A stretch of 64,000 bases of DNA from Clostridia bacterium (GTDB lineage Bacteria; Bacillota; Clostridia; Peptostreptococcales; Acidaminobacteraceae), in the NCBI GenBank assembly GCA_018399635.1, contig JAGYOH010000003.1, forward strand, positions 1-64,000, read 5' to 3'. Under the pieces are notes generated by a model. That model did no database searches. It saw only the letters and a list, made by a program, of their open reading frames with translations, and was not told the origin of the DNA. The translations under genes were made by a program, and so were the position numbers. Positions 27,078-33,533 of the stretch are shown one piece after another (the first letter of the stretch is position 1; each line of letters opens with the position of its first letter).

Positions 27078-28277
27078 TTACCTCCGCATTCTGCGATTGA
27101 TTTTTTTGAGAATCCAAAGCCCCATGACTCCGGTCAGGCCGACCAGAACCAGGATGGGCAGATAACTCACCACATAGACGATGGCATCCTGGGTGAATCG
27201 GATGATGCGATTGATGTTTCTGATGAAACCCTCCCTGATTTCCTCGGACAGACTGCGGTCCGTGGAGGCAATGGCACCTGAGTCCTCCACCTCTCTCATT
27301 GAAATATAGAGTGTGGACAGGTCCACCCGGGAGTCGATGTTCTTGAGATTTCTCGTCAGGGCATCGATTTCACTGCGCACCCGGTAAAGCTCGTTTTCAA
27401 CACTGAGGATGTCGTCGATGTCCTCGGCCTTTGCCATCAGCTCTCTGAGCCGATCTTCCCTCACCTTGAGGTTTTCCACCTGGGCATCCACATCATAATA
27501 GTATTCCGTCTGGTCCTGGGTGCTGGTATTGACGCTCTTGACCTCGCTATGGTCCTCCACGAAGGCGATCATGGCCTCCAGGTCATCAGCGGGAATCCTG
27601 GCGGTGATCTGGGCGTTCCTCATCCGGGCGTTATCCTGGATCTTCTCGTAATAGCTGAAGTAGTAATCCCCGATGCTGCCCTGTTCCACGAAGCCGCCGT
27701 AGAAGACCACCTGCTGGCTGAACAGCCGGTAGACGGCTTCTATGTCAGAGGTCTCCACCTCCATGGACACGTTGCGGATGATTTTCCTCGGAGCTTCAGG
27801 GGTCCCTCTTTCCTCGGGATAGCCCGCCTCCTCCATGGTCATGTCGCTTTCAAAGGCCCCCTTGGCGGCCGCGCCCGGTTCCTCTTCCGGCATTTCAGCC
27901 TGCGGGGCGAAATCCATGGCCATTTCATTGCTTTGACCCGCCAGTCTGAGGGGACTGATCCCCTGGATTCCGGTGATGATGATCCCCAGGAGAAATACGG
28001 CGGCGATGCCCGCAATCCATTGGTAGTTTTTCTTGAAGAAGCCTTTGCGGGGCTCTGAGGCCCTCCTGAGTTCTCCCATCAGGGCCTCATGAAATCCTTG
28101 AGGAAGCTCCGGGGGGTTCAGGGTTGCCAGCGCCTCTTTGATCTGCTTCGATGTGTCAAACTCTTTTTGACAGGCTTCGCATTGTTTCAGATGCTCAAGA
28201 ATTTCTTTCCTGACATCATCTTCCAGATTATCATCGATCAAGTCGTTCAAATGTAGTCTTGCTTGTTTACAATCCAC
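27078..28277 (-). CDS. anti-sigma factor: zinc-finger plus DUF4349
   Basis: The 399-residue protein has an N-terminal zf-HC2 anti-sigma domain (H29-x3-C33-x2-C36), a membrane segment near 87-105, and an external DUF4349 domain with a long coiled coil (V-E-N-L-K-V-R-E-D-R-L-R-E-L). A second membrane segment lies near the C-terminus (about 365-390). It presumably holds the ECF sigma factor at the membrane and senses envelope state through DUF4349. It starts with GTG eight bases after GGAGG and 12 bp after the sigma gene. Confidence 0.88.
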   Translation of the reverse strand: MDCKQARLHLNDLIDDNLEDDVRKEILEHLKQCEACQKEFDTSKQIKEALATLNPPELPQGFHEALMGELRRASEPRKGFFKKNYQWIAGIAAVFLLGIIITGIQGISPLRLAGQSNEMAMDFAPQAEMPEEEPGAAAKGAFESDMTMEEAGYPEERGTPEAPRKIIRNVSMEVETSDIEAVYRLFSQQVVFYGGFVEQGSIGDYYFSYYEKIQDNARMRNAQITARIPADDLEAMIAFVEDHSEVKSVNTSTQDQTEYYYDVDAQVENLKVREDRLRELMAKAEDIDDILSVENELYRVRSEIDALTRNLKNIDSRVDLSTLYISMREVEDSGAIASTDRSLSEEIREGFIRNINRIIRFTQDAIVYVVSYLPILVLVGLTGVMGLWILKKINRRMRR

Positions 28278-28289
28278 CCTTCACACCTC

Positions 28290-28862
28290 CTATCGGATCA
28301 AACTAAGGGCATCCGGATATGCTTTGACAATTTCTTCCTTGAGCATCTGCCTGCCCCGGCTCAACCGGCTTCTCACCGTCCCCACGGGAATCTCGAGAAA
28401 AGCGGCAATTTCCTCGTAGGAATAGTCCTGGATGTCCTTGAGTCGAATCACCTCCGCATTTTCCGGGTTGATTCTCTCGAGGGTCCTGTGGACCATGGTT
28501 TTCAAGTCCTCGGTCTCAAGGGTTTCCTCAGGGGTCTGGTGCTCGTCCCTCAGGCCTTCGAAGTGGTTGTCCTCTAAAGAGACCTCCTTCATTCTTTTCG
28601 TCTTTTTCAGGGCATCCTTGCAGGTGTTGATCACGATGCGGTAGATCCAGGTGCTCAGGGACGCCTCGAACTTGAACTTGCCCAGGTTCTTGTAGACCTT
28701 GATCAGGGCCTCCTGGGTCACCTCCGCCGCCATTTCGTAATCTCCCAGATAACTCATGGCCATGGCGAAGGCCGGTTGCTCATAGGCCTTGATCAGTTTT
28801 TCAAAACTCCTTACATCTCCGTCGACGGATTTCCTTATCAGATATATATCTTGGTCAGACAT
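28290..28862 (-). CDS. ECF-type RNA polymerase sigma factor
   Basis: The 190-residue protein has the two-domain ECF layout. Region 2 contains E-K-L-I-K-A-Y-E and A-E-V-T-Q-E-A-L-I-K, and region 4 contains Y-S-Y-E-E-I-A-A-F-L-E-I-P-V-G-T-V-R-S-R-L-S-R-G. It directs transcription of envelope-stress genes and probably its own operon. The ATG follows GAGGAG at seven bases. The cognate anti-sigma gene is directly downstream. Confidence 0.93.
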   Translation of the reverse strand: MSDQDIYLIRKSVDGDVRSFEKLIKAYEQPAFAMAMSYLGDYEMAAEVTQEALIKVYKNLGKFKFEASLSTWIYRIVINTCKDALKKTKRMKEVSLEDNHFEGLRDEHQTPEETLETEDLKTMVHRTLERINPENAEVIRLKDIQDYSYEEIAAFLEIPVGTVRSRLSRGRQMLKEEIVKAYPDALSLIR

Positions 28863-30841: not shown

Positions 30842-30869
30842 AAAAAGAGTCCTAGGACTCTTTTTTTTT
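30841..30869. terminator. bidirectional terminator after the OsmC gene
   Basis: A palindrome AAAAAGAGTCC/GGACTCTTTTT with flanking A- and T-runs ends both the OsmC gene (plus) and the DUF5317 gene (minus). Confidence 0.85.
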
Positions 30870-31403
30870 CATATGGGGCACGATGAGCATTCCGGTCCCG
30901 ATGCCGATGAGCAGGTCCCCGAAGCTGATGGTCTTGGGAAAGGGATAGGGGGGCGGGATATGCACGATGTCCCCGAGGGATTTCAAAAGATCATCCGCCG
31001 CCATCACCTTGTGGCCGAAGACCATCCCCTGGCTGAGGGCTTCCTTGGCCTCCTCGAAGCCCATGGCCAGAGGCACCTCCACCTCCACCGGCATGAAGCC
31101 GGCATTGAAGATGATCACCAGGAAATTGAGCAGGGTTCCCAGGGCCAGGACCCGGACACCTTCAAAATGCCAGTTGGCAAGGATGAAGGCGAGGAGGAAA
31201 AGGTAGACCGACAGGTGGAGCCACAGGGTGGTGCCCGCCACCGGAATGACCCCCTGCTTTTGAAGAACCCCCCCCAGGACCTCGATTCCCAGGGCCATGA
31301 AAAGAATCCAGGGAACCCTCAGATCCAGGGAAACCAGATGCTTCACTCGTCCCCTGACCAGCAACCCGATGATCAGGCTGATGACGATCGACTCAATCAG
31401 CAT
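30852..31403 (-). CDS. DUF5317 family membrane protein
   Basis: The 183-residue protein has four or five membrane segments and the DUF5317 features: N-A-G-F-M-P-V-E near residue 100, then L-L-K-S-L-G-D-I-V-H-I-P-P-P and I-S-F-G-D-L-L-I-G-I-G. Its function is unknown. In other Clostridia such proteins often sit beside HD-GYP proteins (from memory). Here its start overlaps the HD-GYP gene by 11 bp, so the two are coupled and may work together. Confidence 0.8.
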   Translation of the reverse strand: MLIESIVISLIIGLLVRGRVKHLVSLDLRVPWILFMALGIEVLGGVLQKQGVIPVAGTTLWLHLSVYLFLLAFILANWHFEGVRVLALGTLLNFLVIIFNAGFMPVEVEVPLAMGFEEAKEALSQGMVFGHKVMAADDLLKSLGDIVHIPPPYPFPKTISFGDLLIGIGTGMLIVPHMKKKES

Positions 31404-32661
31404 GGATTTTCACCTGCCCTCTGGCCTCCCGGATCCGCACAAAGGCCGCCACCACCTGGGGGTGGAACTGACTGGCACTTTCACCCGCCAGAATCTCAAA
31501 GGCCTTTTCTTCGCTGAAGCCCTTGCGGTAGGCCCGATCCGTGGTCATGGCGTCAAAGGAGTCCGCCACGGCGATGATGCCGGATTCGACGAGGATTTCG
31601 TCCCCGGCCAGGCCCAGGGGATATCCCGTGCCGTCGTAATGCTCATGGTGCTGGGCGATGAAGCGGCTGGCATCCTTGAGAAAATCGACGTCCTCGATGA
31701 TTCTGGCCCCCATGAGGGGATGGTCCTTGATGAGGCGGTATTCAGCCTCGGTGAGCCCCGAGGGCTTGAGGAGAATATTGTCGCTGATGCCGATTTTTCC
31801 CACATCATGCAGGAGGGCCGCCGTATAGAGATTCTCGATCCGGTTTTCCGGAAGTTTCATCTCTCTGGCGATCATCATGGCGTAATCCGCCACCCGGGTG
31901 GAGTGGTTCCTGGTATATTCATCCTTGGCATCCACCGCCTTGGTCAGGGCGGTGATGGTTTCCAGGTAGACCCGCTTCATTTCCAGATAGAGGGTATAGG
32001 AATATCTTGCCAGGATCAGAGGACCGAAAAACAGCAGCAGGCCGAACCAGCCGTAACTGGTATAAAAAAGAAGCATCATGATCCCCAGGGGTGACAGGGT
32101 CACAAAGCTCTTCAAGGCCCATAGATTCTTCATGATGAAGTCCGTCAGCTTGATCTGGTTGATGAGGCTGAAGAGGACCATGAAGAGGGAGGTGTTGATC
32201 AGATAATACACGATGATGGTGAGGAGCAGGGCGATGATGCCGTAGCCGGAGAGCCTCACCTGGTCCATGCCGTTGACGGCATGGAAGAAATCGCCGCTGA
32301 CATAGGCCGTCAGGTAGTAGCTGGAAGCGTTGAAAAGCCTTTTGTGGAAGGCCCCGTTGAACAGGTGGCTGACGCCTTCTTCCGTTCTGTAGATTGAGAA
32401 CAGGAATCCCAGAAAAAGCAGCGCGGCGGATTGTTCCGGGGTAAACACCACGATGGTGGTGAAGGCGATGGAGAATCCCAGGGAAATATTGCTGAAATTC
32501 GAGTCCTTTATGGAAAAAAACTCCGAAAGCATGATGAGCACCAGGAAAAAAAGAATCTCTGTGAAATCCAGATCCTGAAACAATTGCGGAAAGTTGTAAA
32601 TGAATAAGAAAAGACTGATGGCTACAACGGAAGAGATATACAGCTTCACATATTTATCCAT
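31393..32661 (-). CDS. membrane HD-GYP domain phosphodiesterase
   Basis: The 422-residue protein has an N-terminal membrane sensor of about six to eight segments (residues 8-222). An HD-GYP domain follows, with H253 (H-S-T-R-V-A), H285-D286 (L-L-H-D-V-G-K-I-G-I) and H-H-E-H-Y-D-G-T-G-Y-P at 338-348. The domain hydrolyses cyclic di-GMP or related dinucleotides. All metal ligands look present. The ATG is five bases after TAGGAG. The leader upstream is the unusual inverted-repeat segment 32684-32898. Confidence 0.92.
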   Translation of the reverse strand: MDKYVKLYISSVVAISLFLFIYNFPQLFQDLDFTEILFFLVLIMLSEFFSIKDSNFSNISLGFSIAFTTIVVFTPEQSAALLFLGFLFSIYRTEEGVSHLFNGAFHKRLFNASSYYLTAYVSGDFFHAVNGMDQVRLSGYGIIALLLTIIVYYLINTSLFMVLFSLINQIKLTDFIMKNLWALKSFVTLSPLGIMMLLFYTSYGWFGLLLFFGPLILARYSYTLYLEMKRVYLETITALTKAVDAKDEYTRNHSTRVADYAMMIAREMKLPENRIENLYTAALLHDVGKIGISDNILLKPSGLTEAEYRLIKDHPLMGARIIEDVDFLKDASRFIAQHHEHYDGTGYPLGLAGDEILVESGIIAVADSFDAMTTDRAYRKGFSEEKAFEILAGESASQFHPQVVAAFVRIREARGQVKIHAD

Positions 32662-32683
32662 AAAAACTCCTAATATAATAAAA

Positions 32684-32898
32684 GATCAACACCAGCAATA
32701 AACCTAAACTACTCTAGAATAAGTACCTATCTCCAAGTCCACTGAGATCCGCTTGCCAGTACCAAAGAAAGTAATGACATCATTAAAACGAATAATCTTT
32801 TCACAATTATGCCCTCCTCTATTTGAGGCTCTGCTTTTTCGCTAATCAAACAGGCATAATCGCTTCGCTAAAAAAAATCAATTCTACTGGTGTTGATC
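32684..32898 (-). repeat. 215-bp segment bounded by a perfect 12-bp inverted repeat
   Basis: GATCAACACCAG at 32684-32695 and its exact complement at 32887-32898 enclose 191 bp between the DUF-like gene ending at 32907 and the HD-GYP gene. Inside, on the minus strand, ATTATGCC (32855-32862) can pair with GGCATAAT (32806-32813), which covers part of a GAGGAGG ribosome-binding site. A 25-codon frame follows. It may be a structured leader RNA of the HD-GYP gene or a miniature mobile element; no target duplication is visible. Confidence 0.75.
32727..32804 (-). CDS. 25-residue hydrophobic peptide
   Basis: A GTG start eight bases after GAGGAGG opens a frame of 25 codons. It has a charged start (M-K-R), a hydrophobic core (LFVLMMSLLSLVLA) and a short polar tail ending S-Q-W-T-W-R. 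It looks like a tiny secreted or membrane peptide: a leader peptide, a signalling peptide or a type I toxin are options. Its ribosome-binding site sits at the base of a hairpin. It lies in the inverted-repeat segment upstream of the HD-GYP gene. No family recognised. Confidence 0.5.
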   Translation of the reverse strand: MKRLFVLMMSLLSLVLASGSQWTWR

Positions 32899-32906
32899 CT
32901 TCATGG

Positions 32907-33533
32907 CTAAAGTTGACTCAACCGCCGGTTGACGGCACTCAGGGCCGCTCTCACCAGGGCGTACTCCCGGTCGTCCCGGATCACCGAGGAACCTGATAAA
33001 ATCCTTTCTCTATCAAACAGGGTGGACAGCATGACCAGCCAGACCGAATAGTTGGGGCGGTGAATCTCCTCCACCCCCTCGAAGAATATCCGATCCTCGA
33101 AATTGTAGAGCTGTTCCAGGGCCTTGATGGTCGCCTCTATGATGGCCGCAAGATTTCTAGAAGCGATGTTGTACTCCTCGCAGATCCCTGTGACCGCAGT
33201 GTCCTTGAGCTTCAAGGTCACCTCATAGATGGTCTTTTTGGCGTCGATCCGCTTGCTGATGCCTTCGATGGACACCCGGTTCTGGGGACTCAAAAAATCA
33301 TCCCCCTCGATCTGGGCGATGCTGATGACACGGTGATCGATGTCCATGTTCATTCCAGCCAGGAGGGTTGACTGGATGTCTCGTGAGATCTGCTTGGGGT
33401 TTTTGCTCAAATCCGTCAACAGGTGAAATTCTTTGATGACCTTGTCTTCCATGACGACCTTCGATGAAAAAATTCCAGGAATCTTTTTAACCAAAGATTC
33501 AATCTCCTGACTGGTGACCCTTTCCTTTTCCAA
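32907..33533 (-). CDS. conserved protein of unknown function
   Basis: The 208-residue soluble protein has an N-terminal region (about 1-75) with I-P-G-I-F-S-S-K-V-V, then S-K-N-P-K-Q-I-S-R-D-I-Q-S-T-L. A second region (about 80-208) ends V-R-A-A-L-S-A-V-N-R-R-L. I recall similar two-part proteins in other Gram-positive bacteria but no assigned function. The start is TTG at 33533, five bases after GAGGGGA. The gene has its own promoter, and its stop lies 8 bp from the inverted-repeat segment. Confidence 0.6.
   Translation of the reverse strand: MEKERVTSQEIESLVKKIPGIFSSKVVMEDKVIKEFHLLTDLSKNPKQISRDIQSTLLAGMNMDIDHRVISIAQIEGDDFLSPQNRVSIEGISKRIDAKKTIYEVTLKLKDTAVTGICEEYNIASRNLAAIIEATIKALEQLYNFEDRIFFEGVEEIHRPNYSVWLVMLSTLFDRERILSGSSVIRDDREYALVRAALSAVNRRLSQL

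Follow-up and report, generated by a model that had tools for sequence, protein, structure and literature searches.

A short segment between two genes of a Clostridia bacterium probably belongs to a peptide signalling system: in our best reading of the sequence comparisons, a structured RNA domain encloses the gene of a pheromone precursor, whose product would be sensed by a membrane c-di-GMP phosphodiesterase encoded next to it. Bacterial cells would then be exchanging a signal of a new kind, one that controls c-di-GMP.

The segment lies within a window of 64,000 nucleotides, by which we mean the whole stretch of DNA that was analysed. On the transcribed (-) strand, the gene of a 208-aa protein is followed by the segment and then by a gene of the HD-GYP family (Table 1). 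This agrees with a preliminary description of the same DNA, which had placed the segment between two same-strand genes and had recognised inside it the open reading frame (ORF) of 25 residues that translates as VKRLFVLMMSLLSLVLASGSQWTWR. Elsewhere in the window (27078-28862), a gene for an ECF-type sigma factor is followed by one for a zf-HC2/DUF4349 protein, an apparent sigma/anti-sigma pair.

Table 1. Features of the segment and its neighbouring genes, in window coordinates.
Feature	Position	Strand	Remarks
Upstream 208-aa protein gene	32907..33533	(-)	without assigned function
P1 5' arm	32887..32898	(-)	fold extends to about 32885-32904
Conserved AGCGNAGCG element	32861..32869	(-)	
P2 5' strand	32854..32860	(-)	covariation and window fold
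P3 5' strand	32850..32853	(-)	covariation; absent from minimum-energy fold of window copy
Second conserved element UAGCGNA	32838..32844	(-)	in P3 loop
P3 3' strand	32831..32834	(-)	covariation; absent from minimum-energy fold of window copy
Shine-Dalgarno GGAGGG of peptide gene	32812..32817	(-)	overlaps P2
P2 3' strand	32806..32812	(-)	between Shine-Dalgarno and start codon of peptide gene; covariation and window fold
25-codon peptide gene	32727..32804	(-)	GTG start; candidate pheromone precursor, MKRLFVLMMSLLSLVLASGSQWTWR
P1 3' arm	32684..32695	(-)	fold extends to about 32678-32697; 22 nt before HD-GYP start codon
U-rich stretch	32670..32683	(-)	terminator-like, directly past P1 3' arm
HD-GYP protein gene	31393..32661	(-)	c-di-GMP phosphodiesterase family; proposed receptor
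DUF5317 protein gene	30852..31403	(-)	hydrophobic, apparently membrane; downstream partner

The perfect 12-bp inverted repeat noted at the ends of the segment is indeed present, its arms being exact complements, and the only exact copies of GATCAACACCAG in the window are those at 32684-32695 (+) and, as the complement, at 32887-32898. Such ends are also what a miniature inverted-repeat mobile element would carry, which had been named as the rival view. A search for further copies, proposed at the time as a check, found only one full match to the segment in its own genome, an assembly of 36 contigs that is 95.55% complete, the six other matches being of 14-31 bases and due to chance. A single copy argues against a mobile element, and so do the constant place of the segment within the operon, flanked throughout the phylum by the same genes, and arms that change together. 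Taken together, these observations refute a mobile origin.

An RNA domain closed by stem P1

The two arms had been suggested to close a large RNA domain in the transcript, ending about 22 bases before the HD-GYP start codon. RNA folding of 32662-32906 (-) bears this out: the predicted structure contains P1, extended to about 20 bp, together with P2 and without P3, at -72 kcal/mol (z -4.4), and 0/200 shuffled sequences folded as well.

Stem P1 was assessed without an alignment, by setting the complementarity of the arms within each locus against that of arms from different loci (106 loci, with L103, L123 and L141 dropped). The median score was 33 for a locus's own arms and 19 for mismatched ones, a control that is generous because many loci share GGCCGAC-like cores. 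Own arms beat all 30 mismatched controls in 59/106 loci and at least 28 of the 30 in 94/106; a clear P1 was present in 104 of the 106, among which 98 distinct arm pairs occur. The domain spans a median of 209.5 nt in these 104 loci, and the 3' arm begins a median of 9.5 nt past the peptide stop codon and ends a median of 22 nt before the HD-GYP start. Past the last G or C of the arm, T makes up 0.60 of the following 8 nt versus 0.35 over the whole gap (104 loci), and TTTT occurs past the 3' arm in 51/104. The arms also share a core more often than pairing alone requires (GGCCGAC in 20/104, GACCGAC in 10/104), which is perhaps a protein site.

For the interior of the domain, a covariance model of the RNA core (R1) was built on alignment A2, which comprises 10 of the 16 sequences. 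Over 98 loci it gave 67 matches at E<=1; three of these (L133, L146 and L176) look misplaced and were kept in the counts. Across the 67 matches, 93.5% of the cells of P2 and P3 were paired versus 77.4% when shuffled and 18-60% when slid, 11 of the 12 pairs had changed on both sides, and the covariation score was 0.392 versus 0.170 shuffled (0/500), figures that lean towards the model since the alignment was fitted to it. An unconstrained RNAalifold consensus of the same alignment recovered P3 and did not recover P2. Stem P2 corresponds to the pairing of ATTATGCC with GGCATAAT seen earlier in the window alone, and it lies over the initiation region of the peptide. Covariation in aligned copies had been put forward as the observation that would support an RNA, and the pairing of P1, P2 and P3 is conserved; on the strength of these pairing and covariation results, a conserved structured RNA domain closed by P1 is almost certainly real. 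A further element of the preliminary description, in which the 5' arm forms a short alternative hairpin ahead of eight T, is present in the window; L009, the closest relative, lacks TTGAT, the 3' half of this hairpin, and we have therefore dropped it. The short pattern AGCGNAGN or AGCCGAG (the AGCGNAG motif) is missing in 5/106 loci.

None of the Rfam covariance models matched the segment above its gathering score, and at E<=5 over 10 loci only two chance matches appeared, both to snoRNA families and below their gathering scores. An order-wide search with R1 (E<=0.01) gave matches in 29/297 genomes, one in each except G003, whose two matches both lie at contig ends. All inspected matches lie in the 208-aa/HD-GYP operon, apart from one (L052) that was judged false for having neither peptide nor P1. 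The conserved fold, the lack of an Rfam match and the two highly conserved elements, AGCGNAGCG and UAGCGNA, would also suit a novel riboswitch that responds to a metabolite and governs the operon, the peptide being incidental to it. This is very unlikely, given the single copy per genome, its constant association with this operon wherever real matches were inspected, and the conservation of the peptide at the protein level.

The operon in other genomes

Homologues of the 208-aa gene were found in 17/61 near-relative genomes and in 151/398 genomes of the phylum, the source genome included in both counts. Where loci were read by eye (among them 29 phylum loci, of which L067, L075 and L078 were not parsed), the gene is nearly always followed by a leader with a AGCGNAGCG-like element, a strong Shine-Dalgarno sequence, a short ORF and, if the contig is long enough, an HD-GYP gene. 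A larger sample comprised 143 fetched regions, 117 from the phylum listing, 13 from near relatives and 13 from the order-wide RNA search, and leaves aside most of the weakest phylum rows and a few others (e.g. G635, G321). Of these regions and the window, 144 in all, 143 yielded the 208-aa gene; an HD-GYP gene follows it in 103 loci and does not in 40.

Removal of L189, which is the same locus as L127, and addition of seven loci from a denser sample (eight fetched, one cut off) led to a set of 109 loci. A peptide ORF of 19-30 residues, taken as the best-scoring candidate of each locus and corrected by hand in L180, could be placed in every one of these 109, each of which has an HD-GYP gene downstream. 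A strict, fixed definition of the peptide was passed by 100/109 HD-GYP loci versus 1/38 loci without HD-GYP, these controls being the ones with over 450 nt of downstream sequence; the single passing control, L096, ends at a contig edge. A DUF5317 gene follows the HD-GYP gene in 89/103 HD-GYP loci, a count in which one locus appears twice (L127/L189), versus 0/40 loci without HD-GYP. In 11 of the 103 it was not seen in the stretch examined, and in 3 more the contig ends; L127 is among the 11 only through its short stretch, as the same locus under L189 has DUF5317. The two genes are mostly adjacent or overlapping; the distance between them reaches about 1.3 kb in some loci. One uninterrupted ORF of about 600 codons holds both HD-GYP and DUF5317 in L108; this natural fusion or lost stop codon hints at a direct cooperation of the two proteins.

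Variation was also seen around the 208-aa gene. Two tandem copies lie upstream of the peptide in L127, and the family occurs without peptide and HD-GYP in L126, L129, L132, L143 and others, as well as in L107 and L163. Downstream of the gene in such loci comes an ORF of about 900 aa or a short ORF of SpoVS-like appearance.

The N-terminal half of the HD-GYP protein is hydrophobic and apparently membrane-embedded. The residues H253, H285, D286, K289, H314, H338, H339, G346-Y347-P348 and D367 are invariant in 41 sequences; the window protein carries the HD...GYP catalytic residues and is a predicted phosphodiesterase. Pfam MASE9 (PF20972) was detected in the N-terminal half of 30/41 HD-GYP homologues, the window's own copy falling below threshold. 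For the 208-aa protein, weak LeuA_dimer-like matches were obtained in 13/41 homologues. The idea that DUF5317 is an LspA-type protease, which came from two conserved Asp motifs, was rejected after an hhalign comparison with PF01252 (2% probability over 21 columns). A search for solved-structure relatives of DUF5317 and of the 208-aa protein gave none that was convincing (best E 2 and no match, respectively), and structure models from two-sequence alignments, with pLDDT of about 40, were unusable.

MASE9 itself offered another route to related receptors. It was found in 30/119 phylum genomes, the source genome not being among them at that threshold, and in 2/14 named controls, Thermotoga maritima and Thermus composti; a passage of PMC6022435 mentions peptide quorum sensing for T. 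maritima. Thirty loci were fetched and 13 inspected, of which L274 was already in the set and L282 starts at a contig edge. In four loci of HD-GYP type (L281, L286, L287 and L293) a peptide ORF lies upstream; the L293 peptide lacks an aromatic end. In L292, which has a MASE9-HD-GYP gene, no peptide was seen upstream. Nothing peptide-like was observed in the six MASE9 loci that lack a recognised HD-GYP motif, two of which contain other short ORFs. By eye, a diverged 208-aa-like gene lies upstream in L281, L286 and L293. Peptide and HD-GYP receptor stand in another gene context in L287, without the AGCGNAGCG element, so that the two seem able to travel without the leader element.

Peptide end and receptor sensor half

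Most of the 109 peptides have, as judged by eye, a positively charged, hydrophobic, signal-peptide-like N-terminal part. Lys or Arg occurs within residues 2-6 in 103/109, the pattern [AVILSTG]xA[GA][GA] follows the hydrophobic part in 92/109, and the last six residues contain Trp in 82/109 and an aromatic residue in 105/109. The hydrophobic part is conserved and the C-terminus is short, variable and usually aromatic. Some members have no typical signal peptide, namely those of only 19-21 aa and those of an amphipathic type such as MTILTAILEVLTKAVGHITWL. This second type of peptide accompanies the same RNA in L210, L211, L213 and L224-L226; no DUF5317 was found within the stretch examined in L210, L211, L213 and L226.

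Codon changes were counted in 19 of 20 hand-picked pairs of close relatives, one pair of unequal length being dropped. Synonymous and nonsynonymous changes stand at 40:12 in the N-terminal part, up to the AGGA-like stretch, versus 9:21 after it (Fisher p 5e-5, which is optimistic because pairs share members). The end of the peptide changes faster than its remainder.

Comparison within one genus (9 genomes, 8 loci long enough) places this divergence beside that of the neighbouring proteins. The 208-aa proteins are 91-100% identical, apart from the outlier L244 at 68-70%, the catalytic halves of the HD-GYP proteins 92-99% and the DUF5317 proteins 78-98%. Sensor halves are 55-80% identical between loci with different peptide ends and 94-96% between loci that share the end NLQWN (L113/L241, 94%) or NLTWG (L110/L243). 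A telling pair is L110 and L242 (NLTWG/NYTWG), with 100% identity in the 208-aa protein, 99% in the catalytic half, 97% in DUF5317 and 68% in the sensor half. An exception is L112/L242: both end in NYTWG, and at 76% identity their sensors resemble each other no more than those of L112 and the NLTWG carriers do (77-78%). Within these eight sequences, by eye, there is a hint that one part of the sensor follows -TWG versus QWN/SWQ and another follows Leu versus Tyr/Phe at the first variable position.

The pattern recurs in a second family, where sensors are 84% identical between two YRLG loci, 77% between two FRFGG loci although their 208-aa proteins are only 84% identical, and 54-67% between loci with different ends, apart from the exceptional pair L117/L119 (NFKFG/NFKLG) at 77%. 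A further exception is L158/L172, with different peptides and sensors that are 85% identical. Over 105 of the 109 loci (L103, L108, L123 and L141 dropped), similarity of the peptide end, an ad hoc measure that counts identical residues after the AGGA-like anchor, correlated with sensor similarity when catalytic half and 208-aa protein were controlled (partial Mantel r 0.203, 0/999 permutations), versus r 0.052 for the catalytic half controlled likewise. Among 53 close pairs, defined by catalytic halves at least 85% identical and being few and not independent, mean sensor identity was 0.88 for the same end (7 pairs) versus 0.65 for different ends (46 pairs); label permutation within clusters reached the residual sensor difference in 1/5000. 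With exceptions, the C-terminus of the peptide and the HD-GYP sensor half thus diversify together, beyond what the flanking genes show.

Co-variation of this kind speaks for a ligand and not just a leader, and the peptide is quite likely the ligand of the adjacent receptor. It also alters the earlier view of the segment as a regulatory leader, of which the structured RNA with an inner stem at the peptide's initiation region stands. In a pure leader-peptide scheme, stalling or terminating ribosomes would refold the RNA and so control the HD-GYP gene, the product itself being inert. P2 covers the initiation region of the ORF, and the P1 3' arm lies close to both the peptide stop and the HD-GYP start with a U-rich stretch next to it, all of which would suit such a scheme. 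Arrest peptides, however, are typically conserved at their C-terminus, which here is variable, rich in nonsynonymous changes and in step with the receptor; moreover, the AGCGNAGCG leader element is absent from L287, where both peptide and receptor occur. Conserved short ORFs do accompany other structured RNAs, as sections of PMC8632094 describe for the odc1 and uORFC motifs, and we nevertheless consider an inert leader peptide rather improbable.

The main rival to a released pheromone is a membrane-resident micro-subunit: a peptide that is never released and sits in the membrane as a tiny part of the HD-GYP protein, N-terminus in and C-terminus out, tuning its own cell. The hydrophobic N-terminal part could span the membrane in many members, the neighbourhood with the HD-GYP gene is strict, and a fixed subunit contact would also produce co-variation with the sensor half. 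A subunit offers, however, no obvious reason for the rapid divergence of the C-terminal 4-5 residues with their excess of amino-acid changes, nor for sensors at 55-80% identity beside flanking proteins that are mostly above 85%, and members of 19-21 aa would hardly span a membrane. We regard it as unlikely, if less so than the inert leader, and lean on balance towards a pheromone that is released and whose dosage is set by the RNA.

Proposed signalling route and known systems

Secretion of the peptide, its binding to the sensor and regulation by the RNA are all predicted steps of the pheromone reading. The peptide would be exported and cut near the ..LA/GGA.. junction, which would release a pheromone of about 5-8 residues; this would bind the neighbouring HD-GYP protein at its membrane-embedded sensor half and change the c-di-GMP phosphodiesterase activity of that protein. 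Local density or kinship would thereby set c-di-GMP, and rapid divergence of ligand and receptor would define pherotypes. DUF5317 might help in export, cutting or reception. From the anatomy of the RNA, we infer that dosage may be regulated by P2, which would shut the ribosome-binding site of the peptide, and by P1, which with the trailing U-rich stretch would end or attenuate the transcript. A ribosome ending on the peptide ORF could open P1, and many short peptide mRNAs would be made per receptor mRNA, so that the RNA would set the dosage.

The arrangement recalls Agr and ComQXPA, in which the gene of a precursor peptide lies beside that of a membrane receptor, and in which the end of the peptide and the sensor region diversify together, as they do here. 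A census of ComQXPA has been published (PMC4008528). Unlike in those systems, the proposed receptor is an HD-GYP protein and not a histidine kinase, the peptide gene lies inside a closed RNA domain, and the regular neighbours are the 208-aa protein, HD-GYP and DUF5317, with no AgrB, ComQ or response regulator seen among them. In Clostridium thermocellum, the AgrD-type pentapeptide is a cyclic lactone with a conserved proline, which sets it apart when the descriptions are compared, and sections of the same paper report no cognate receptor for it (PMC5322536). Cell-cell signals that act directly on c-di-GMP enzymes are represented, in the part of PMC8846402 considered here, by BDSF-RpfR and AI-2-dCACHE; those signals are a fatty acid and AI-2, whereas the candidate described here is a gene-encoded peptide (PMC8846402). 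In odc1 the ribosome-binding site likewise lies within the structure, and odc1 and uORFC involve other genes and peptides, a distinction that draws on their description in sections of PMC8632094 and, for sequence, on the Rfam comparison. A further difference is that the entire ORF here lies within P1, with a peptide C-terminus that changes along with the neighbouring protein.

A search of the open-licence literature found no published description of the peptide/HD-GYP locus and no mention of MASE9 or DUF5317, and the sections considered of two papers on new bacterial RNA motifs (PMC11109978, PMC8632094) do not describe an RNA-enclosed peptide locus.

Altogether, the peptide/HD-GYP system is present in many genera, and we see about an even chance that it represents a widespread and so far undescribed quorum-sensing family of Bacillota, in which a linear peptide from an RNA-caged gene is read directly by a c-di-GMP phosphodiesterase embedded in the membrane, MASE9-type HD-GYP sensors are peptide receptors, and pherotypes exist. 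If the proposed reading is true, it would provide a ligand for an orphan membrane sensor domain and would couple signalling by ribosomally made peptides to the turnover of c-di-GMP in a direct way, with no kinase in between. It would also suggest functions for DUF5317 and for the family of the 208-aa protein, and would add a structured RNA family that encloses the gene of a signal peptide.
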